Below, piece by piece: positions 14,703 to 28,826 of a DNA stretch of 28,826 bases (its first letter is position 1; every line of letters begins with the position of its first letter). The translations under genes were made by a program, and so were the position numbers. The DNA comes from a virus. Location of the stretch: positions 1-28,826 of the IMG/VR virus record IMGVR_UViG_3300046777_000265. One strand, 5' to 3'. Under the pieces are notes generated by a model, which saw nothing but the letters and a program-made list of their open reading frames with translations, was not told where the DNA came from and searched no databases.

Positions 14703-15356
14703 ATGACAATACTAAGAGGAATCAAGGAAATGACTGCAGTTCTAGATGGACCAAAGTCATCAGATGGACCAAAGGTTAAGTGGCTAAAACTTGCAGATGG
14801 TCAATCTGTAAAGATTAGATTTTTAGAAGAACTTGACGAAGATTCAGCAAACTACAACGCAGAGCGTGGCTTAGCAATTGTAGTTAAGGAACATACAAAT
14901 CCAAAGGACTATAAGCGTAAGGCTGTAGATACAATGGATACAGAGGGCCGTGACTGGGCAGAAGAAATGCATCGCAAGGATCCAAAGGCTGGCTGGAGAG
15001 CACGTCTTCGTTTCTACTGCAACGTTCTTGTAGACGATGGCATCGAAGCGCCATACGTTGCAATCTGGTCAATGGGTATCAGCAAGCAATCATCATTTAA
15101 TACAATTCGTGAGTATGCACTTGAAACAGGAAGCATCTCAAACGTACAATGGAAGTTAAAGCGTAATGGTCAGGGTACTGAAACCAACTACACACTAATT
15201 CCATCTGCACCAGACAAGGAGCCATTCAACTGGGGAGACATTAAGCCTTACCCACTAGAGTCTGCACTACGCAAGGTTCCATACGCAGAACAAGAAGCGT
15301 TCTACTTGGGCTTTGATGGCCCATCATCCACTTCGGCAACAAACGCTGATTGGTAA
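14703..15356 (+). CDS. Single-stranded DNA-binding protein, gp32-like
   Basis: Probably coats ssDNA during phage replication and recombination. It is 217 residues with a very strong Shine-Dalgarno site (AAAGGAGAAAAC). The order of elements (basic N-terminus, KWLKLADGQSVKIRFLEEL, then RARLRFYCNVLVDDG, then NVQWKLKRNGQGTETNYTLI) follows phage gp32-like proteins with an OB fold, in which a zinc site often sits after 'TEGR'. Here that stretch (RDWAEEMHRKDPKAGW) has no cysteine, so the zinc site looks lost. The C-terminus ends in an aromatic residue (NADW), as many SSB tails do, but is not strongly acidic. Position between primase and polymerase supports the call. Confidence 0.75.
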   Translation: MTILRGIKEMTAVLDGPKSSDGPKVKWLKLADGQSVKIRFLEELDEDSANYNAERGLAIVVKEHTNPKDYKRKAVDTMDTEGRDWAEEMHRKDPKAGWRARLRFYCNVLVDDGIEAPYVAIWSMGISKQSSFNTIREYALETGSISNVQWKLKRNGQGTETNYTLIPSAPDKEPFNWGDIKPYPLESALRKVPYAEQEAFYLGFDGPSSTSATNADW

Positions 15357-15357
15357 T

Positions 15358-17820
15358 ATGAACTACGTCGGCTTACATGTCCATACCCATTTTAGTTTGT
15401 TTGATGGGATTGCTACTCCAGAAGAATACGTGAACCGTGCAGTTGAGTTAGGGATGCCAGCAATTGCGATCACTGACCACGGTACTTTATCTGGGCATAG
15501 GGAACTGCACCGTATTGCAAAAGCAAAGGGCATTAAGCCAATTCTTGGGCTAGAGGGATACATGTGTGCAGACATATCTGATACACGAGATAAGTCTGAA
15601 AGAGAAGGTCAGCAAGATCTTGTCTATAACCACATTATCCTTCTAGCCAAGAATAAAATTGGTTTAGAAAATCTAAACAAGATCAGCGAACTATCATGGA
15701 CAGATGGTTTCTTTAAGAAGCCACGATTTGATTTTAGTATATTGGAAAAGTATAAAGAAGGAATCATTGTTTCTTCTGCTTGCCCAAGTAGCGTTTTAGT
15801 TAAAGCACTTGAAGAAGAAGAGTTTGCTCTTGCTAAGAAATATATAGCATGGTTTAAAGAGCGCTTTGCAGATGACTACTATATTGAGGTTATGCCTCAT
15901 AATGAAGCGCATATTAATAAGTATCTTATAGAACTTGCAGACGAGTTTGGCATTAAGGTTATTGTTACACCAGATTGCCACCACGTTGACCCATCACAAA
16001 AAGAGGTTCAAGAGTTTAAGTTGCTAATGAATACACATGGTAAGTTTGTCAAAGATGCAACATATGAGAAGTCAAAGAAGCAACCAGACATGATGAAGCG
16101 CCTGGACTATCTTTATGGTGAAGACCGCCAGATAACATTCAATAAGTTCGATATTCACCTGCTTTCATACGAAGAGATTAAAGCAGCCATGGAAGCGCAG
16201 GGTATTGATAGACCAGACATTTATTCAAATACAATCCTATTAGCAGATACAGTAGGAGACTATGGCATTCAAGAAGGCTTAAATCTACTACCAGTACAGT
16301 ACAAGAGCCCTGACAAAGAACTTGCAAAGGTTGCACTAGAAGGTTTGGCAGAGCGAGGTTTGTCAGAGAATCAGGAATACCTTGAAAGACTTGAAGAAGA
16401 GTTGCAAATTATTAAAGATAAGAAGTTTGCTCCATACTTCCTTGTTGTAAGTAATATGATCAACTGGGCTAAGAAGGAAGAAATTATGGTGGGTCCAGGT
16501 CGTGGATCTTCTGCTGGTTCTCTTGTTTGCTATGCACTAAAGATTACAGACATCGACCCTATTGAGCATAACCTTTTGTTCTTCCGCTTTATTAATCCAG
16601 AGCGTAATGACTTCCCAGATATTGATACAGATATTCAGGATACTCGTCGTGAAGAAGTAAAGGATTATCTTGTTAGACAATATCGACATGTTGCATCTAT
16701 TGCAACCTTCCTTGAGTTTACAGGCAAGGGAATCGTTAGAGACGTTGCACGAGTTTTAAGCATCCCGTTATCAGATGTGAATAAAGTTTTAAAAACTGTA
16801 GATTCATGGGATGATTTCTGCACATCAAAGGCAACCTATGAGTTCCGCCAGAAGTATCCAGAAGTAGAGGTCTATGGTGAGCAACTTCGTGGTCGAATCC
16901 GTGGAACAGGTATTCACGCAGCAGGTGTTGTTACAAGTAAGGAGCCAATCTTTAGATATGCACCACTTGAAACAAGATCATCTACTGGATCCGATGAAAG
17001 AATTCCTGTTGTTGGTGTTGACATGGAAGAGGCTGAGAGAATTGGCTTAATCAAGATTGATGCATTGGGACTTAAAACATTGTCTGTTCTTAAGAATACA
17101 ATTGACATTATTAAAGAACGAGATGGAAAGAAGATTGATCTTCTTAAGATTAAGATGGACGATGCTAATGTTTATCAGATGCTTTCAGATGGTTATACAA
17201 AGGGCGTGTTCCAGTGTGAAGCAGCACCATACACGAATCTTCTTGTTAAGATGGGTGTCAAGAATCTAAATGAACTTGCTGCATCAAATGCTCTTGTTCG
17301 TCCAGGCGCAATGAATACTATCGGAAAGGACTATGTTGATCGTAAGCATGGTCGTCAAAATATTTCTTATACTCACCAAGTATTGAAGCAATTTACGGAG
17401 GACACTTATGGCTGTATTCTTTACCAGGAACAAGTTATGCAAGCATGCGTACACCTTGGCGGTATGTCCATGTCGGAAGCAGATAAAGTTAGAAAGATCA
17501 TTGGCAAGAAAAAGGATGCTAAAGAATTTGATCAGTTTAAAGAGAAATTCGTAGAAGGTGCATCACGATTTGTTTCACCAAATATTGCTCGTGATCTGTG
17601 GCATGACTTTGAGGCTCACGCAGGGTATTCATTTAACAAGTCTCACGCAGTAGCATACTCAACACTGTCTTACTGGACAGCATGGCTAAAGTATCACTAC
17701 CCACTTGAGTTTATGTACTCACTACTAAAAAATGAAAAGGACAAAGATGCAAGAACTGAATACCTTATTGAAGCAAAAAGAATGGGCATTAGCATTAAGT
17801 TACCTCACATTAACGATTGA
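15358..17820 (+). CDS. dnaE: DNA polymerase III alpha (DnaE), N-terminal and catalytic part
   Basis: Replicative polymerase, family C. I chose the ATG at 15358 over 15313, because the earlier residues are out-of-frame SSB sequence. The 820 residues begin with a PHP domain whose metal-binding motifs look intact: HVHTHFS (H7, H9, H11), ITDHG near 40 and PDCHHV near 205. The palm has the Asp cluster FPDIDTDI (D421/D423/D425) and a third carboxylate in GLIKIDALGLKT (D568). Residues 660-700 and the KSHAVAYSTLSYWTAWLKY segment continue the fingers. The frame ends at TGA right after 'LPHIND', in the middle of a conserved stretch; the rest of the enzyme continues in the +1 frame. See the next entry. 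Confidence 0.9.
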   Translation: MNYVGLHVHTHFSLFDGIATPEEYVNRAVELGMPAIAITDHGTLSGHRELHRIAKAKGIKPILGLEGYMCADISDTRDKSEREGQQDLVYNHIILLAKNKIGLENLNKISELSWTDGFFKKPRFDFSILEKYKEGIIVSSACPSSVLVKALEEEEFALAKKYIAWFKERFADDYYIEVMPHNEAHINKYLIELADEFGIKVIVTPDCHHVDPSQKEVQEFKLLMNTHGKFVKDATYEKSKKQPDMMKRLDYLYGEDRQITFNKFDIHLLSYEEIKAAMEAQGIDRPDIYSNTILLADTVGDYGIQEGLNLLPVQYKSPDKELAKVALEGLAERGLSENQEYLERLEEELQIIKDKKFAPYFLVVSNMINWAKKEEIMVGPGRGSSAGSLVCYALKITDIDPIEHNLLFFRFINPERNDFPDIDTDIQDTRREEVKDYLVRQYRHVASIATFLEFTGKGIVRDVARVLSIPLSDVNKVLKTVDSWDDFCTSKATYEFRQKYPEVEVYGEQLRGRIRGTGIHAAGVVTSKEPIFRYAPLETRSSTGSDERIPVVGVDMEEAERIGLIKIDALGLKTLSVLKNTIDIIKERDGKKIDLLKIKMDDANVYQMLSDGYTKGVFQCEAAPYTNLLVKMGVKNLNELAASNALVRPGAMNTIGKDYVDRKHGRQNISYTHQVLKQFTEDTYGCILYQEQVMQACVHLGGMSMSEADKVRKIIGKKKDAKEFDQFKEKFVEGASRFVSPNIARDLWHDFEAHAGYSFNKSHAVAYSTLSYWTAWLKYHYPLEFMYSLLKNEKDKDARTEYLIEAKRMGISIKLPHIND

Positions 17821-18613
17821 GGGTAAAGGTATTCGGTTTGGACTCAGTGCTATCAAGTTCATATCTGACAAAATTGGTGAGAGATACATATCTGCACGAC
17901 CATTCAATTCGTATAAAGAACTTGAAGAATTTACATTTACCAAAGGCAACGGAGTAAACAGTCGTGCACTCCAAGCCCTAAGAGTAATTGGCGCAGCAAC
18001 ATTTAATGATAATCCTAGAAATGACCAGGAGATTAAAGAGAACCTGTATGAGTACTTAAACCTTCCAGAGTTTAACATTACAATACCTTCTCACTACTAC
18101 GCTTTCATTCAGGATATTGTTGACTTTGAAGAAAAAGGATCATACATCTTTATGGGTATGGTAAAATCAATTAAGCGAGGAACAGGATGGTCACGAGTTG
18201 AAATTTTGGACAAAACTGGCAGTGTCGGTATATTTGATGATGAAAATACAACTATTGAGACAGGTCGTTCTTATCTGGTCTTGTGTAATGATAACAGGAT
18301 TGTTTCTTTCATACCTTCAGATGAGATAAAAGAATCGTCACATGCTCTTGTAAAGTTTTTGAGTTATAAGCAGTTGCCATATAAAGATGATGAAATGTTC
18401 GTGGTTTCATTTAAGCCAAGAATTACAAAGACTGGAAAGAAGATGGCATCTCTAACACTTGCAGATACAAGAAGAGATCTTCATTCTATTACGGTTTTCC
18501 CTACATCTTTTGCAAAGGCATACATGCATATTGAAGAAGGAAAGTCATATAAGTTTGATTTTGGAAAGACTAAAGACGGAACAGTAACATTGGAGGATGT
18601 ACATGTCAGTTAG
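17810..18613 (+). CDS. dnaE: DNA polymerase III alpha (DnaE), C-terminal part in the +1 frame
   Basis: About 268 codons that complete the polymerase. TIEGKGIRFGLSAIKFIS is the classic sequence that follows 'LPPDIN..' in DnaE. Next come a helix-hairpin-helix-like segment (ALQALRVIGAATF) and an OB-fold domain (IFMGMVKSIKRG, WSRVEILDKTG), then a second beta-rich region (KKMASLTLADTRRDLHSITV). Together with the first part it gives ~1,085 residues, close to normal DnaE (~1,150). The nearest in-frame ATG, at 17732, only adds residues that are shifted-frame polymerase sequence, and no good start exists near 17810. It is therefore a fragment separated by a frameshift, or needs recoding, rather than an independent gene. 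It overlaps recA by 11 bases. Confidence 0.8.
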   Translation, partial: LTIEGKGIRFGLSAIKFISDKIGERYISARPFNSYKELEEFTFTKGNGVNSRALQALRVIGAATFNDNPRNDQEIKENLYEYLNLPEFNITIPSHYYAFIQDIVDFEEKGSYIFMGMVKSIKRGTGWSRVEILDKTGSVGIFDDENTTIETGRSYLVLCNDNRIVSFIPSDEIKESSHALVKFLSYKQLPYKDDEMFVVSFKPRITKTGKKMASLTLADTRRDLHSITVFPTSFAKAYMHIEEGKSYKFDFGKTKDGTVTLEDVHVS

Positions 18614-23259: not shown

Positions 23260-23785
23260 AGATGATTTGGTTAAGCACCTTGATCAAGTAAACCAAGTAG
23301 TAGAAGAATACCTAAAGGGCAATGACCCAACAGTTATCTCTAAGCAACTTGCAATACCAAGACAAAAGGTTGTAACACTTATTAATGAGTGGAAGGTTAT
23401 GGCATCTGCTAATGATGCTATTCGTGCTCGTGCTAAAGAAGCACTGGCTGCTGCAGATACACACTATAGCAAGTTGGTATCTCGTACATATGAAGTTATC
23501 GATGAAGCGTCTATGACTAATAATCTTAGTGCAAAGACTGCTGCAATCAAACTTGTAATGGATATTGAATCCAAGCGTATTGATATGCTGCAGAAGGCTG
23601 GTCTGCTTGAAAATAAAGAACTTGCTGAAGAGATGATGGAAATTGAAAAGCGTCAAGAAATTCTTGTCCTTATATTAAAAGACATTGCTTCTGAGTACCC
23701 ACAGGTTCGTGACGAAATCATGCGTAGGCTTTCTGCATTTGCAAAAGACAATGAGGTGATTACAGTTGTCCACGATGTTCAATGA
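23249..23785 (+). CDS. Terminase small subunit (predicted)
   Basis: A 178-residue, mostly helical protein directly upstream of and overlapping the large terminase. The N-terminal part contains a helix-turn-helix (VISKQLAIPRQKVVTLINEW, residues ~29-48), as expected for a DNA-recognition subunit. Residues 55-140 are long helices suited to the oligomerisation ring (NLSAKTAAIKLVMDIESKRI). Role assigned from the HTH, size and position; sequence similarity among small terminases is poor, so confidence is moderate. Confidence 0.7.
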   Translation: MSTEDDLVKHLDQVNQVVEEYLKGNDPTVISKQLAIPRQKVVTLINEWKVMASANDAIRARAKEALAAADTHYSKLVSRTYEVIDEASMTNNLSAKTAAIKLVMDIESKRIDMLQKAGLLENKELAEEMMEIEKRQEILVLILKDIASEYPQVRDEIMRRLSAFAKDNEVITVVHDVQ

Positions 23786-25547
23786 TTTCCTTGAAGCACT
23801 ACAGGATGATCACTTTAATGAGATACCAGTAGACGCAAGAACATTTGTTGAGGGCGATGCTTTCCTTGGACAGCCACCACTATCAGATATCCAGTATGAC
23901 ATCGTTGAGGCAATGAGTCAGATCTATCGTAGAGAAGATTTGATTAATATCATGGGTGAAGAAAAGGGTACTCAGTACTACAACAAGTATACAAAAAATG
24001 AAATCATCCTGCAACTTGGCAAGGGATCTGGAAAAGACTTCACATCAACCGTAGCATGCTCATACATCGTATACAAACTTCTATGTCTAAAAGACCCAGC
24101 AAAATATTTTGGTAAGCCTTCTGGAGATGCTATCGACCTTATTAACGTTGCTATTAACGCTCAACAGGCTAAGAACGTTTTCTTTAAAGGCTTTAAATCA
24201 AAGATTGAAAGATCCCCATGGTTTGCAGGAAAGTATTACGCTAAGGCTGACTCGATTGAGTTTGATAAATCAATCACAGTTTACTCTGGTCACTCAGAGC
24301 GTGAATCACATGAGGGTTTGAACCTTCTTCTTGCAGTACTTGATGAGATTTCTGGTTTCGCATCTGAAGTTGGAACAGGAAATGAACAAGGAAAGACTGC
24401 TGATAATATCTATAAGGCTTTCCGTGGATCAGTAGATTCTCGTTTCCCAGACCTTGGAAAGGTTGTTCTTCTATCATTCCCAAGATACCCAGGTGACTTT
24501 ATTTCAGAAAGATACGATGACGTAATTGCTGAAAAAGAGGTTATAGAAAGAACGCACAAGTTTACAATTAATCCATTACTTCCAGAGGATAGCCCAGATA
24601 ACACATTTGAAATTTCGTGGGATGAAGATCAGATTACATCATATAAATATCCAGGAGTGTTTGCACTAAAGAGACCTACATGGGAAGTAAATCCAACACG
24701 TAAGATCGATGACTTTATGATTGCATTCATGACAGACCTTGGTGATGCAATGATGCGCTTTGCATGTGTTCCAACCTTTGCTTCTGATGCATTCTTTAAG
24801 CAGGCAGATAAGGTAAGATCATGCATGACATTAAGAAATCCAGTAGATACTTTTAAAAGGTTTGACGAATCATTTAAGCCAGACCCAAACAAAAAGTATT
24901 ACGTTCATGCTGACCTTGCACAAAAGCATGACAAGTGTGCAGTTGCAATTGCTCACGTAGATAAGTGGGTAAACATTCAAGTAATTAATAATTATGAGCA
25001 GGTCGCCCCAATTGTCGTAGTAGATGCAGTAGCATGGTGGGAGCCAAAGGTAGAGGGTCCAGTTAACCTATCAGAGGTAAAGCAGTGGATTCAAAACCTC
25101 AGAAGATTAGGGTTTGATATTGGCCTAGTTTCTTTTGACCGCTGGCAGTCATTTGATATTCAAAATGAGTTGAAGCAAGTAGGAATGAGAACTGATACTG
25201 TTTCTGTTGCCAAGAAGCACTATGAGGATATGGCTATGCTTGTGTATGAAGAAAGACTTGTTATGCCAGCAATCGAACTTTTGTTTGAAGAATTAACACA
25301 GTTAAAGATTATGAAAAATGATAGAGTTGACCACCCACGCAAAAAGTCAAAGGACTTGGCTGATGCTGTGTGTGGTGCTATTTTTGGGGCTATATCTCAT
25401 ACCCCTAAAAATACAGACACTGAAGTAGAGGTTCACACATTTAGGGACAGATCTAAGCGTGTTGACGAACTACCTGAGAACGTGATACAATATAAACCTA
25501 TGCCAGATGACGTAAAAGACTATTTGGATAGATTAAATCTACTATAA
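23766..25547 (+). CDS. terL: Terminase large subunit
   Basis: DNA packaging motor and headful/cos nuclease. I favour the TTG at 23766, because GAGGTG lies six bases upstream; the ATG at 23775 would be 15 bases away. It is 593-594 residues. The ATPase has Walker A LGKGSGKD (G85 to K90) and Walker B LLLAVLDEIS (D193, E194). The RNase H-like nuclease has D383 in HADLAQKHD, D458 in VSFDRWQS and D530/D533 in SKDLADAV. Between the domains is a long linker region. It overlaps the small subunit by 20 bases. The nearest downstream gene is an exported protein rather than a portal, which is unusual. Confidence 0.92.
   Translation: MSTMFNDFLEALQDDHFNEIPVDARTFVEGDAFLGQPPLSDIQYDIVEAMSQIYRREDLINIMGEEKGTQYYNKYTKNEIILQLGKGSGKDFTSTVACSYIVYKLLCLKDPAKYFGKPSGDAIDLINVAINAQQAKNVFFKGFKSKIERSPWFAGKYYAKADSIEFDKSITVYSGHSERESHEGLNLLLAVLDEISGFASEVGTGNEQGKTADNIYKAFRGSVDSRFPDLGKVVLLSFPRYPGDFISERYDDVIAEKEVIERTHKFTINPLLPEDSPDNTFEISWDEDQITSYKYPGVFALKRPTWEVNPTRKIDDFMIAFMTDLGDAMMRFACVPTFASDAFFKQADKVRSCMTLRNPVDTFKRFDESFKPDPNKKYYVHADLAQKHDKCAVAIAHVDKWVNIQVINNYEQVAPIVVVDAVAWWEPKVEGPVNLSEVKQWIQNLRRLGFDIGLVSFDRWQSFDIQNELKQVGMRTDTVSVAKKHYEDMAMLVYEERLVMPAIELLFEELTQLKIMKNDRVDHPRKKSKDLADAVCGAIFGAISHTPKNTDTEVEVHTFRDRSKRVDELPENVIQYKPMPDDVKDYLDRLNLL
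25462..25491 (+). promoter_or_regulatory. Promoter inside the terminase 3' end
   Basis: TTGACG (25462-25467), 18 bases, then TACAAT (25486-25491), with TG one base before the -10 (TGA). Start of transcription would be near 25498, giving a leader of ~65 bases that ends in a strong Shine-Dalgarno site (AAGGAGAA) before the ATG at 25565. This is the best -35/-10 pair I found and would let the exported-protein gene be transcribed separately from the packaging genes. Confidence 0.5.
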
Positions 25548-25564
25548 ACAAGGAGAAATAACGA

Positions 25565-26692
25565 ATGAATTCATTCAAGAAGATCGCACTAGCCGTGGTT
25601 GCAGCCATGACTTTGGGCATGGTCGCCGTAGCACCTGCAAATGCTACAGTAATGACAGTAGCAGTAACACTAGACGGAACAGCAAACACAACTAATGGTG
25701 TACTTGCTACCCCTGCTACACTACCAGTCCCAGCAGACAATACAATTGATGCAGCAGACGCATTGCGTTTTGTAGCAACAGTTGCAGCAGGAACATCAGT
25801 TACTGCAACTGCAACTAACGCAACAATCGTATCTGCACTACACACATCAGCAGCACCAGTAGGAGCATCGTCAGGATCATCATCTTTGACAATTGCAACA
25901 GGTACTGGAACAACTGCAACATTCTTTGTTTACACAAAGACAACAGCAATTGGCACAGTTGTAATCAACAACGGTGGAACAACTCTTACATATTATGTAC
26001 AGGGTACTGCTGGAAAGATCAACAACCTAACAGTTTCAGCACCTGCTACAGGTGCAGCAGGAACTAAGCAGGATATCGTTGTAACTGCAACAGACACATT
26101 TGGTAACAAGGTTTCTGGTAAGTCAATTACAGCAACAGTCTTTGCTGCAACAGCAGTACTAGACACAGCAACAGTAACAACTGGTGCTACACTAACAGAC
26201 TTTGGAACAGCAACCTTTAAGGCAACTCTTCCAACAACTGGAACACGCTCACTAATCACATTTGCTCCAACAACTTCAACAGATGCAACATCTGCAGATG
26301 TAGTTGGTCTACCTGCTCGCACTCTTGCACCATTTGCAGAGATTGCAGTTCGTGACCTAGTGTCAGAACTTGCTGCTGAGAAGGCTGCAAAGGATGCAGC
26401 ACTTGCTGCTAAGGCTGTTGCAGATGCTGCAGTTCTAAAGGCTGCTGCAGATGCTGCTGCTGCTAAGGTCGCTTCAGATGCTGCTCTTGCAGCAGAAAAG
26501 GCTGCTTCAGCAAAGGCACTAGCAGATGCAAAGGTTGCTTCAGATGCAGCACTTGCTGCTAAGGATGCACAGATTGCTAAGTTGACTGCAGACAATGCAG
26601 CAGCAATCAAGTCACTTAAGGATGCTTTCAACAAGTTGGCTCGCCAATGGAATGCAAAGAATCCAAAGGCACGAGTTACTCTCGTTAAGTAA
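25565..26692 (+). CDS. Exported Ig-like/coiled-coil surface protein, host-like
   Basis: A 375-residue secreted protein. Residues 1-27 are a Sec signal peptide (MNSFKKIALAVVAAMTLGMV, ending APANA). Residues ~30-250 are Thr/Ala-rich beta strands; residues ~165-235 fit a bacterial Ig-like (invasin-type) domain (IVVTATDTFGNKVSGKSIT). Residues ~265-350 are an Ala-rich coiled coil with repeated units (VASDAALAAE, then VASDAALAAK). The C-terminus is LARQWNAKNPKARVTLVK. There is no LPXTG or membrane anchor. It has its own candidate promoter and an intrinsic terminator. Base composition (more G+C, GCA/GCT-rich) differs from neighbours, suggesting acquisition from the host. I associate this kind of protein with freshwater actinobacteria. 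Function unknown; it may change the host surface. Confidence 0.75.
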   Translation: MNSFKKIALAVVAAMTLGMVAVAPANATVMTVAVTLDGTANTTNGVLATPATLPVPADNTIDAADALRFVATVAAGTSVTATATNATIVSALHTSAAPVGASSGSSSLTIATGTGTTATFFVYTKTTAIGTVVINNGGTTLTYYVQGTAGKINNLTVSAPATGAAGTKQDIVVTATDTFGNKVSGKSITATVFAATAVLDTATVTTGATLTDFGTATFKATLPTTGTRSLITFAPTTSTDATSADVVGLPARTLAPFAEIAVRDLVSELAAEKAAKDAALAAKAVADAAVLKAAADAAAAKVASDAALAAEKAASAKALADAKVASDAALAAKDAQIAKLTADNAAAIKSLKDAFNKLARQWNAKNPKARVTLVK

Positions 26693-26705
26693 TTAGTCCA
26701 ACACT

Positions 26706-26738
26706 AAAGGGGTTGCCAATTATGGTAGCCCCTTTTTT
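26706..26738 (+). terminator. Intrinsic (rho-independent) terminator
   Basis: A 12-base-pair stem (26706-26717 with 26724-26735; two G-U pairs, no mismatch) around a six-base loop, GGGG pairing with CCCC, followed by a run of six T (26733-26738). It lies 14 bases after the stop of the exported Ig-like gene. It is the only strong terminator I can see in the window. Confidence 0.9.
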
Positions 26739-26749
26739 GTGGAATAAAA

Positions 26750-26758
26750 TGGTATAAT
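26750..26758 (+). promoter_or_regulatory. Extended -10 promoter (TGGTATAAT)
   Basis: TGG followed by a perfect TATAAT, 12 bases after the terminator T-run, so the following gene must start a new transcript. No clear -35. Transcription would begin near 26765, right at the palindrome (26767-26781). Confidence 0.55.
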
Positions 26759-26766
26759 CATCCTAT

Positions 26767-26781
26767 CAGACATCATGTCTG
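26767..26781 (+). promoter_or_regulatory. 15-bp palindrome, candidate operator
   Basis: CAGACAT-C-ATGTCTG: perfect seven-base arms with a one-base centre, nine bases after the -10 box. With a one-base loop it is unlikely to form a good RNA hairpin, so a dimeric protein bound at the transcription start is more likely. A strong G-rich Shine-Dalgarno (GGGGGAAGG) follows. Confidence 0.5.
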
Positions 26782-26796
26782 CAAGGGGGAAGGCAA

Positions 26797-28826
26797 ATAA
26801 AACGACTACTACGCATAGCAACAGCCACTATATTAGCCTTTGGATGGCTTCTAATAGCCCCTACGGACGCACACTCTGACGACCCTTTAACAGTTGCAGC
26901 AGGACAGATTCAAAACCTCAATAGCGCAGTAGATAAATTAGACTATAAAGATGGTCTAATAGGGCTAATTGACATAGCAGAGAACAAGTTTCTTTATGCC
27001 AAAAACCTGGGGGATGTAAGAGACGATGCCTATCAAGCCTATGATGATGCAGTAGAGGCAGAAGAATTAGCCTTACAAGAGGTAGAACTTGCTCAGTCAA
27101 ATGTGGATGGGCAGACAGCCACAGTAGCCCTTGCTCTTGAGAATAGAGACAATGCTTTTCAAGATAAGAATGATGCACAGGATGCTCTCAACATAGCCAA
27201 CATTAATCTTCAAACAGCACAATCTAACATGCAATCTGCTGGTGGATCAGGATTTCAATATACTGTCTATAATCTTGCAAGGGTTTGGCCAAGCATAGCA
27301 GTTCCAGATTCTGTTATTTGTTCTGGTACTTGGAACTCAAACTCTATGTACCTTCCAGTTTGTGGAAATAGATATGAAAATATAGTAGTTAAATTCACTG
27401 GCAGAATTACAGTTCCAGATCACTGGACATCTACATATTTTGCAGGGTACACAGATGATGGATTTAAAATGTATATTGATGGACAACTTGCTATCAGTAA
27501 CTGGGTAGAGCAAGGAGTAAGATGGAGTTCCTACTCTCCCACATACGATGTTACTACAGACAAGACATTTGATGTTGAGATTTGGTGGTATAACGGTGGT
27601 GGTCCAGGATCTTATCATCTTGGATGGGCTATTCCTGGAGGATGGACTGGAGCAGGGTGCGACTATACTGGTGGTTGGGGTGTAGGATTTAGTTGTAATC
27701 TTGGAACATTCTCTTCTGGATCAGGACCAACACAGGCACAAATAGATGCTTATAACCAAGCACTTGCAACAAGGAATGCAGCGCAACAAGATTATAACAA
27801 TGCTTTGTCAGAATATAATGACAAACTAAATGTATATAATCAGGCTGTTTCAGAACTAAACTCATTAGCCCAAACATTAACTAACAAAGAATCTGAATAC
27901 GACAATGCAGTAAATGATACAGAAGATGCTTTGTCTGAAAAGAATAATTCTATAAATGATTTTAATAATGCTATCAATGATTTAAATAGTGCAATTGATG
28001 ACGCATGGCGTTATTATGATGAGCAGATGCAGCGAGAGATTCAGAGAGCAATTGCCCAAGCAGCCGCTGCTGCTGCAGCAAATCAGCCAAAGCCAGAGCC
28101 TTCACCAGAACCTAAGCCAACTCTTGAACCAGAGAAGCCAAAGCCTTCACCACCACCAACAGATAAGCCTGAGCCAAAGCCAACCAACCCTACTGCTACA
28201 GAAGAGCCAAAGCCAGTTGATCCTAAACCAGAACCACCAAAGGAAGAGCCAAAGCCTGAGCCAACAAAGCCAGAGGAGCCTAAGCCTACACCTGCCCCAA
28301 GCCCTGAACCAAAGCCAGAGCCTACTCCAGAGCCTCCTGTTGAGCCATCTCCAGAGCCTAAACCACTTCCAAGACCAGACTTTAAGCCAGCAGAAAATAT
28401 TGATCCAGTTATCAAGGATGCAGAGTTGGCAGCACTTATCCCAGAAAAAGGAACTGGTACAGCAGAAGATTTGTCTGGAGTTATTGCTAACCTTACAAGT
28501 AAGGATAATAAATTAGTTAAACTTTCTCCAGAGCAGACAGCAGCAGTAAGCCAGACTCTCAAGTCTTTGACTCAAGAAGCAAAACAAGAACTTGCATCAG
28601 ACCTTGGTATATCAGCAGGCGAAGTTGCAAAGGTAGCGGAGGCAATGAAATCAGATCCTGCAGTAGCATCAGCATTTGTTGAGTTCGCAGAAAGAGCAGG
28701 GGATGCAGGAGAAGCCCCAATGCCATTTACATTAGCAGATGCAGTAACAGAAGTACAAACAGAAGCATTCTTAGCAGATCCACTTGGAGCAGTATTTGAA
28801 GTGGATGTTACAGAACTACTATCTAA
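26797..28826 (+). CDS. Exported PA14/coiled-coil protein, runs off the right edge, probable AUA start
   Basis: The frame is open from 26758 to the window end (>=676 codons). No ATG, GTG or TTG occurs before the signal peptide; the only candidates are AUA at 26797 (six bases after GGGGGA, three after AAGG) and CUG at 26779. From AUA it reads KRLLRIATATILAFGWLL, then IAPTDA (cleavage about residue 25). Residues ~30-145 are coiled coil. Residues ~195-277 are a PA14 domain (FTGRITVPDHW, YTDDGFKMYIDGQ, IWWYN, YHLGW), a sugar-binding fold. Residues ~313-425 are a second coiled coil. Residues ~431-527 are a Pro/Glu/Lys-rich stalk of EPKP-type repeats. Residues 528-676 are a Glu/Ala-rich helical region, truncated by the edge. 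It may be a surface or virion adhesin. Confidence 0.72.
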   Translation, partial: MKRLLRIATATILAFGWLLIAPTDAHSDDPLTVAAGQIQNLNSAVDKLDYKDGLIGLIDIAENKFLYAKNLGDVRDDAYQAYDDAVEAEELALQEVELAQSNVDGQTATVALALENRDNAFQDKNDAQDALNIANINLQTAQSNMQSAGGSGFQYTVYNLARVWPSIAVPDSVICSGTWNSNSMYLPVCGNRYENIVVKFTGRITVPDHWTSTYFAGYTDDGFKMYIDGQLAISNWVEQGVRWSSYSPTYDVTTDKTFDVEIWWYNGGGPGSYHLGWAIPGGWTGAGCDYTGGWGVGFSCNLGTFSSGSGPTQAQIDAYNQALATRNAAQQDYNNALSEYNDKLNVYNQAVSELNSLAQTLTNKESEYDNAVNDTEDALSEKNNSINDFNNAINDLNSAIDDAWRYYDEQMQREIQRAIAQAAAAAAANQPKPEPSPEPKPTLEPEKPKPSPPPTDKPEPKPTNPTATEEPKPVDPKPEPPKEEPKPEPTKPEEPKPTPAPSPEPKPEPTPEPPVEPSPEPKPLPRPDFKPAENIDPVIKDAELAALIPEKGTGTAEDLSGVIANLTSKDNKLVKLSPEQTAAVSQTLKSLTQEAKQELASDLGISAGEVAKVAEAMKSDPAVASAFVEFAERAGDAGEAPMPFTLADAVTEVQTEAFLADPLGAVFEVDVTELLS

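Follow-up and report, generated by a model that had tools for sequence, protein, structure and literature searches.

A conserved pair of exported surface-type genes behind the terminase of Stanwilliamsviridae-related phages: a possible host-surface remodelling module

Why should a tailed phage carry two genes for exported, surface-type proteins directly behind its terminase gene? The question is raised by the virus contig IMGVR_UViG_3300046777_000265 (IMG/VR), whose 28,826 bases form the whole stretch of DNA that we analyzed and that we call the window; here terL is followed by g1, encoding a protein with immunoglobulin (Ig)-like domains, and by g2, encoding a PA14 protein. At a probability of about 0.42, we favor the reading that g1 and g2 constitute a host-surface remodelling module, most likely serving superinfection exclusion, with a g2 start linked to initiation factor 3 (IF3). 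Judged from the sequences, the pair probably re-coats the infected cell, and small-genome actinobacteria of freshwater type seem to be infected by phages bearing versions of the host's own variable surface protein. An original prediction, made from the DNA letters of the window, had likewise proposed a host-surface module; its arguments are taken up below alongside the results that bear on them.

The g1 gene starts 17 bases 3' of the terL stop, and its product opens with a Sec-type signal peptide whose N/K-S-F/L-K-K start is kept in 155/155 complete g1 sequences, the window included; none of the 155 contains a Cys, and so a lipobox, within the first 45 residues. Counts of complete g1 sequences and of loci, here and below, may include a contig more than once (e.g. 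L050/L158 and L019/L132/L161). An AlphaFold2 (AF2) model of g1 consists of beta domains, a helix of ~100 residues and a short tail (mean predicted local distance difference test score 83.6), and its beta part resembles Ig-like domains of bacterial surface proteins, among them invasin, intimin and the surface-layer (S-layer) protein SbsC, the likeness to an S-layer protein being a fold resemblance to SbsC only. Sequence matches of g1 in the PDB at E 0.06–0.09 were not used as evidence. Signal peptide, model and Ig-like matches agree with the earlier description of g1 as an exported Ig-like beta protein with an Ala-rich coiled coil.

Relatives of g1 also reside on chromosomes. A scan of genome contigs returned them in two records, one being the Rhodoluna limnophila chromosome, where a 324-aa protein encoded beside a sigma factor gene aligns with g1 over its full length (1e-5) and shares both its layout and its FNxLAxxWN tail motif. 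The other record is a contig of a cyanobacterial metagenome-assembled genome (L249), in which the g1-like gene adjoins an HslV-like gene of phage kind; it is therefore probably a phage contig misbinned with a cyanobacterium. Wider comparison revealed three kinds of host gene homologous to phage g1. The first (G556 and G753), found in matching housekeeping surroundings, is related to the common g1 type, the window g1 and the G753 protein sharing 47% identity across 157 aa (2.4e-12, with a small database searched). The second, a 648-aa protein of G403 encoded after a sigma factor gene, finds counterparts in 57 of the 151 host-order genomes and is matched by the g1 of L166, L168 and L169 at 1e-28 to 3e-32. 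Proteins of this type are strongly variable in the ectodomain, while those matches that cover just the last 40–110 residues are mostly 56–85% identical. The third (G547 and G529) has its phage counterpart in the L218 g1, with 41% identity (9e-28 and 3.5e-20, among the matches listed), and the G547 and G403 genes occupy loci of one kind. The sigma-factor-linked proteins (G403, G337, G547) share with g1 the signal peptide, the Ig-like beta region and the Ala-rich coiled coil, and are homologous to some phage g1, but they are chromosomal, mostly longer and, in G403 and G337, end in another C-terminal tail. That three different host-type proteins occur in one slot suggests that what matters there is the display of some host-like surface protein, and not of one particular sequence. 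We consider doubtful the bolder proposal that the slot behind terL repeatedly captures hypervariable surface genes of the host, leaving infected cells with another serotype plus an anchored lectin whose translation is tied to IF3.

Homology of g1 to the host's own coat-type protein would equally suit a phage that makes surface protein to keep the infected cell coated and resistant to protist grazing until it bursts, and an S-layer is said to protect planktonic Actinobacteria from grazing (PMC7669872, citing Tarao et al. 2009; papers are cited throughout for the portions drawn on here). We regard such coat maintenance as unlikely, given that it explains neither the anchored PA14 protein nor the divergence of g1 from the host copies. 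The L218 g1 (L218:1935-3626) further ends in a tag, TCxKGKxxKKVTxxxPxCPxGY, and matches 100 of the 151 host-order genomes, among the matches listed mostly through this tag, which may serve these actinobacteria as a general signal for surface sorting or wall binding.

The second gene, g2, runs past the end of the window, and the last ~37 residues of its product, including the anchor, are known from relatives only. These relatives, of ~710 residues, comprise a signal peptide, a coiled coil, the PA14 domain, a second coiled coil, a Pro-rich stretch and a helical domain, and all 102 complete ones end in a hydrophobic segment followed by a basic tail. The first 45 residues contain no Cys in 98/102 g2 proteins, and the window g2 has none near the signal peptide. 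The PA14 domain of the window scores 26.7 bits against PF07691, above the Pfam cut-off of 24, while that of the relative L119 falls under it at 23.0 bits; the assignment is supported by the predicted structure of another relative, L050. These features bear out the earlier account of g2 as a signal peptide, a PA14 domain, two coiled coils and a Pro-rich part. We found no enzyme domain in g1 or g2, and matches to SslE and to HAD proteins lay far under cut-off and were not used. A 728-aa Ala-rich exported-type protein of G657 (L290:2992-5178) carries a g2-like C-terminal segment, with G763 and G619 matching similarly; this segment is possibly an anchor shared with g2.

In structure, the PA14 part most resembles yeast adhesins and the sugar-binding domain of a marine ice adhesin, and the DDG motif, which we take to be significant for carbohydrate binding, is kept in 19/22 aligned g2 sequences (g2 identities in this set use 18 of the 22 rows). 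These resemblances, together with the swapping of the g2 ectodomain in some relatives, invite the reading that the lectin-type domain of g2 and g1 stick infected cells or debris to other hosts or particles and thereby help spread. Sugar binding is predicted only, though, and a cell near bursting would gain little from sticking, and we rank this adhesin role below coat maintenance, as improbable.

Does the position of the pair allow a role outside the virion? Toward terL, the window runs from tail proteins through DnaB, primase, SSB and a DnaE-type polymerase, and further along come a RecA-like protein, a Cas4-like exonuclease, a RuvC-like protein and then terL, which is 55% identical to terL of Streptomyces phage StarPlatinum (NC_048721) and its kin. 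The syntenic core shared with StarPlatinum identifies the window phage and its relatives as Stanwilliamsviridae-related; core gene order is common to both, but StarPlatinum has HNH and tRNA genes after terL. A WhiB gene, proposed as an actinophage mark (PMC10202952), is present in 12/12 long phage relatives and absent from the window fragment. The portal gene lies ~41 kb (G006) and ~38 kb (G004) upstream of terL, with G001 differing only in that its contig is opened between portal and terL, the order being otherwise unchanged. With the portal so far upstream, terL closes the core and the region 3' of it is accessory. The original prediction had placed the pair where portal and capsid genes start, which is wrong for the Stanwilliamsviridae relatives; with portal and capsid ~40 kb upstream of terL, we rejected g1 and g2 as head genes at the portal position. 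Host DNA at a prophage border was rejected as well, since the flank is phage core and the g1 slot is the same in 163/166 relatives.

A virion role could still be sought in head or tail decorations whose signal peptides go unused. Virions are known to contain Ig-like folds, for instance in the neck of phage Chi (8vhx_H, Z 12.7), and the window g2 weakly matches tape-measure PHROGs (3.7e-6 and 1.6e-4); the tape-measure matches cover the coiled-coil and Pro-rich parts and are absent for the L119 relative, and we set them aside as evidence. The signal peptides are conserved, the head and tail modules lie elsewhere, and tailed virions are assembled in the cytoplasm, which speaks against exported g1 and g2 proteins being parts of them. 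We hold this explanation to be very improbable, the least likely of those weighed here.

To establish how consistently the two genes travel together, we collected loci by searches with g1 (at least 600 candidates, 415 confirmed), g2 (182, of which 179 confirmed) and terL (at least 600, with 600 confirmed), the best 80 of each being kept. All three genes were found in 157 of the resulting 226 loci, many of which end early. Among relatives with terL at least 65% identical and at least 500 bases beyond it, 163/166 have g1 no more than 2.5 kb from terL, 157 of them no more than 60 bases from it; the exceptions (L168, L169 and L218) carry a divergent exported protein in the slot, and L169 and L218 are omitted from alignment A1. 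In a second lineage, with terL 51–58% identical, the order is reversed and g1 is located 4 to 9 kb behind g2. There, g1 was recovered in 11/11 loci fetched with g2 that have at least 10 kb after it (a looser count of 19/19 mixed in some loci of the first lineage), and g2 in 6/6 loci fetched with g1 that have at least 9.6 kb before it. No g1 was seen in nine further g2-fetched loci, each with less than 7.1 kb after g2, and neither terL nor g2 in the g1-fetched loci L039, L058 and L076, where 0.01–5 kb precede g1. Relative to the window, the best segments of this lineage are 57–84% identical in g1 and 54–84% in g2; in several loci these values are well above the terL identity, which suggests exchange between phages. 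The pair thus occurs together in two phage lineages with differing gene order, as the original prediction had proposed to check. A tblastn search with g1 and g2 in 50,697 phage records returned no homologue. An additional gene stands between g1 and g2 in L019, L036 and L208, which by eye we presume to be sulfotransferase-like, and another in L151 and L221, presumably dioxygenase-like.

Three genes follow g2 in L119:12368-14096. Their products are a two-helix membrane protein of 95 aa, with relatives in 112 loci, a tetrapyrrole-methylase-like protein, and a proteasome/HslV-like protein, with relatives in 106. A further gene near g2 (L119:14327-15136), with a signal-peptide-like start and no Pfam match, has relatives in 69 loci. 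The holin-like look of the 95-aa protein raises the prospect that the pair works with it in lysis or release, helping to open or leave the envelope. In 97 loci a relative of it is found no more than 600 bases past g2, and in another 13 no more than 3 kb past it; the 95-aa protein also weakly matches a holin family (phrog_443, 6.8e-4). Its far better match, however, is phrog_26427, labelled nuclease (4.8e-25), and the lack of an enzyme domain in g1 and g2 also tells against such a function, to which we assign a low likelihood, lower than that of the adhesin role.

We next turn to the start of g2, which is ATA in the window. Across 96 distinct contexts, the window included, the aligned start is TTG in 35, ATT in 30, ATA in 25 and ATC in 6, and never ATG or GTG. 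The start was read from the alignment to the window ATA where the match begins at residue 1, and otherwise as the nearest ATG, GTG or TTG (10 contexts, all TTG); L104, L156 and L157, having no such start, were excluded. The window g2 has no ATG, GTG or TTG at the aligned start, and its first mechanical start is a GTG at 27103. Among the 71 complete g2 genes with an ATT, ATA or ATC start, 33 contain no ATG, GTG, TTG or CTG back to the previous in-frame stop; the remainder have CTG only (34), GTG (3) or CTG plus TTG (1) upstream. A stop is the codon directly before the g2 start in 25/102 complete genes, and downstream in-frame ATG, GTG or TTG codons lie 7 to 177 codons from the ATT, ATA or ATC start. 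For the 31 complete genes of TTG type, an in-frame ATG lies further upstream in 6 and a GTG in 5, so the TTG start in these 11 rests on the alignment.

In its AUU, AUA and AUC versions, the g2 gene shows the infC pattern of a conserved start of this class with the usual start unavailable. In 12 genomes of the host order, the apparent infC start is ATC in 11 and GTC in one, and six of these genomes have no ATG, GTG or TTG from the preceding stop up to this codon. In Staphylococcus aureus, such starts give ~10% of AUG expression, once up to 30%, and involve extended Shine-Dalgarno (SD) sequences and IF3 (PMC13009471). The genes infC, ccpN and cvfC1 treated there resemble g2 in an AUU/AUA-type start conserved across relatives and in a strong SD; they differ in being bacterial genes, g2 encoding an exported phage protein for which the effect on expression is predicted only (PMC13009471). 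On sequence grounds, translation of g2 looks deliberately low or conditional through its weak start codon, and we infer that it is sensitive to IF3. A gene search limited to ATG, GTG and TTG overlooks this start, so that the signal peptide is lost, and the AUU/AUA/AUC start offers a test case for IF3-sensitive translation in phages.

Expression signals around the two genes were assessed chiefly by conservation. The pattern TTGAC-18-TAxAxT is kept in 78/107 distinct g1 upstream regions (mono-nucleotide shuffles, 0.000 per sequence), and the extended -10 TGnTA[CG]A[AC]T in 106/107. None of 200 shuffles was as stable as the hairpin of the g1 terminator. For g2 leaders we used alignment A6, consisting of the window and 32 of 42 distinct leaders of AUU/AUA/AUC-start genes; L223 and L224, outside A6, have leaders without the CAGAC hairpin. 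Alone, the leader hairpin of g2 is weak (z -1.9; 9/200 shuffles equally stable), with slight covariation (-0.23). In a consensus fold of the leader, the SD is paired with a UCCU further upstream; as the likely transcription start falls about at this UCCU, we do not claim that the SD is sequestered. A generic scan of the window showed no excess of promoters (7 vs 9.9 expected) or terminators (3 vs 4.5 expected) and missed both the g1 terminator and the g2 promoter, so it is conservation that provides the evidence for these control elements. Of the signals named in the original prediction, the two promoters and the strong terminator are conserved; the palindrome, although its pairs are largely kept, is weak by itself.

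Taken together, these observations suggest a scheme in which g1 would be the phage version of a chromosomal surface protein of small-genome actinobacteria, exported by the Sec route to the envelope, where it would be expected to join or replace the host coat. The g2 protein would likewise be exported, would stay in the membrane through its C-terminal segment, and would display a PA14 domain of sugar-binding type on the proline-rich stretch. The two genes would be driven from separate conserved promoters and parted by the terminator, and translation of the AUU/AUA/AUC versions of g2, which share the infC start class, should rise when IF3 is scarce. The pair would then alter the outward face of the infected cell, the most likely benefit being superinfection exclusion by masking or replacing a receptor. 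Of the originally proposed host-surface module, what persists is the surface role, backed by the homology of g1 to chromosomal surface proteins, the export signals and the presence of the C-terminal hydrophobic segment and basic tail in all complete g2 (102/102); the placement at the start of the head genes does not.

Superinfection exclusion is put first on two precedents. For the surface-layer-type gene of methylophage Melnitz, its authors postulate receptor change and protection from superinfection (PMC9004378), and CwpV of Clostridioides difficile stops phage after adsorption in a manner reminiscent of superinfection exclusion (PMC4737114). Melnitz, a lytic phage, resembles the phages studied here in its surface-layer-type gene and in the streamlined aquatic bacterial host; it differs in having a single gene and in host and phage, the comparison being by description and not by sequence, and the portion of its description drawn on mentions no pair, PA14 partner or weak start codon (PMC9004378). 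CwpV is likewise a surface protein with a variable ectodomain, but is encoded and phase-varied by the host (PMC4737114). The Ltp-type superinfection exclusion lipoproteins of phage TP-J34 (PMC3952083) are, like g1 and g2, phage-encoded, exported to the host surface and horizontally spread, but belong to temperate phages, are anchored as lipoproteins and have other domains, g1 and the window g2 having no Cys near the signal peptide. Phage surface proteins affecting superinfection are thus already known as a kind; our searches of open-access papers turned up no description of such a pair, of a connection between it and the variable surface genes of hosts, or of the conserved AUU/AUA/AUC start.

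Several observations weigh against the remodelling scheme. The common g1 type was detected in only 3/151 host-order genomes, in one of them across just the signal-peptide region, and in 7/394 of the class, a close host version thus being rare in the sample, and the query of both scans, alignment A3, itself contains the Rhodoluna and L249 sequences. No full-length host relative of g2 was found, the matches in 29/151 genomes covering mostly the Pro-rich part, and its C-terminal part matches 3/151 genomes, one of which (G657) is itself in the query. The host of the window phage is putative only, a holin-like gene follows g2, and 6/12 host-order infC genes have an in-frame ATG, GTG or TTG between the apparent start and the previous stop. 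Should these phages indeed carry versions of their host's own variable surface protein, that protein would make a good candidate receptor or barrier for phages, and one could then test whether phages re-dress the cells they infect.

Table 1. Positions of terL, the g1–g2 pair and associated signals in the window
Feature	Position	Strand	Details
terL	23766..25547	+	last core gene; PHROG terminase matches; g1 promoter near its 3' end
g1 promoter inside terL	25462..25491	+	TTGACG-18-TACAAT, extended -10; conserved in relatives
g1 Shine-Dalgarno	25550..25555	+	AAGGAG; from sequence
g1	25565..26692	+	ATG start, 375 aa; exported Ig-like and coiled-coil protein, counterpart of host surface proteins
g1 signal peptide	25565..25645	+	27 residues, Sec-type, MNSFKKIALA..APANA; putative cleavage site
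Long helix of g1, with the motif FNxLAxxWN in the C-terminal tail	26357..26689	+	AF2 model; motif in 154/155 complete g1
Terminator hairpin between g1 and g2, then T run	26706..26735	+	z -6.0, conserved
Extended -10 element before g2, TGGTATAAT	26750..26758	+	TGnTATA(A/C)T in 33/33 aligned sequences
Hairpin near presumed g2 mRNA start, CAGACATCATGTCTG	26767..26781	+	four pairs, each kept in 30–33/33
g2 SD-like AAGGGGG	26783..26789	+	AGGGGGAA invariant in 33/33
g2 start codon ATA	26797..26799	+	aligned start in relatives ATT/ATA/ATC/TTG
g2	26797..28826	+	exported PA14 protein; 3' end past the window
PA14 domain of g2 (Pfam-matched part)	27373..27642	+	TDDG motif; PF07691, E 5.4e-6
Proline-rich stretch of g2	28090..28390	+	from sequence; low-confidence coil in the L050 model

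A PADLOC scan and a near-identity DNA search of phages yielded nothing useful, and neither did a search of the family around Rhodoluna, which matched 5/299 genomes, the best being Rhodoluna itself (2.3e-6) and the others reaching 0.003–0.006. Within the core of the window, the DnaE-type polymerase is present as two overlapping frames (15313-17820 and 17732-18613), which in G001, G006 and G004 correspond to a single match over the full length of the protein; the split at 15313-18613 is either a frame change or an assembly error.

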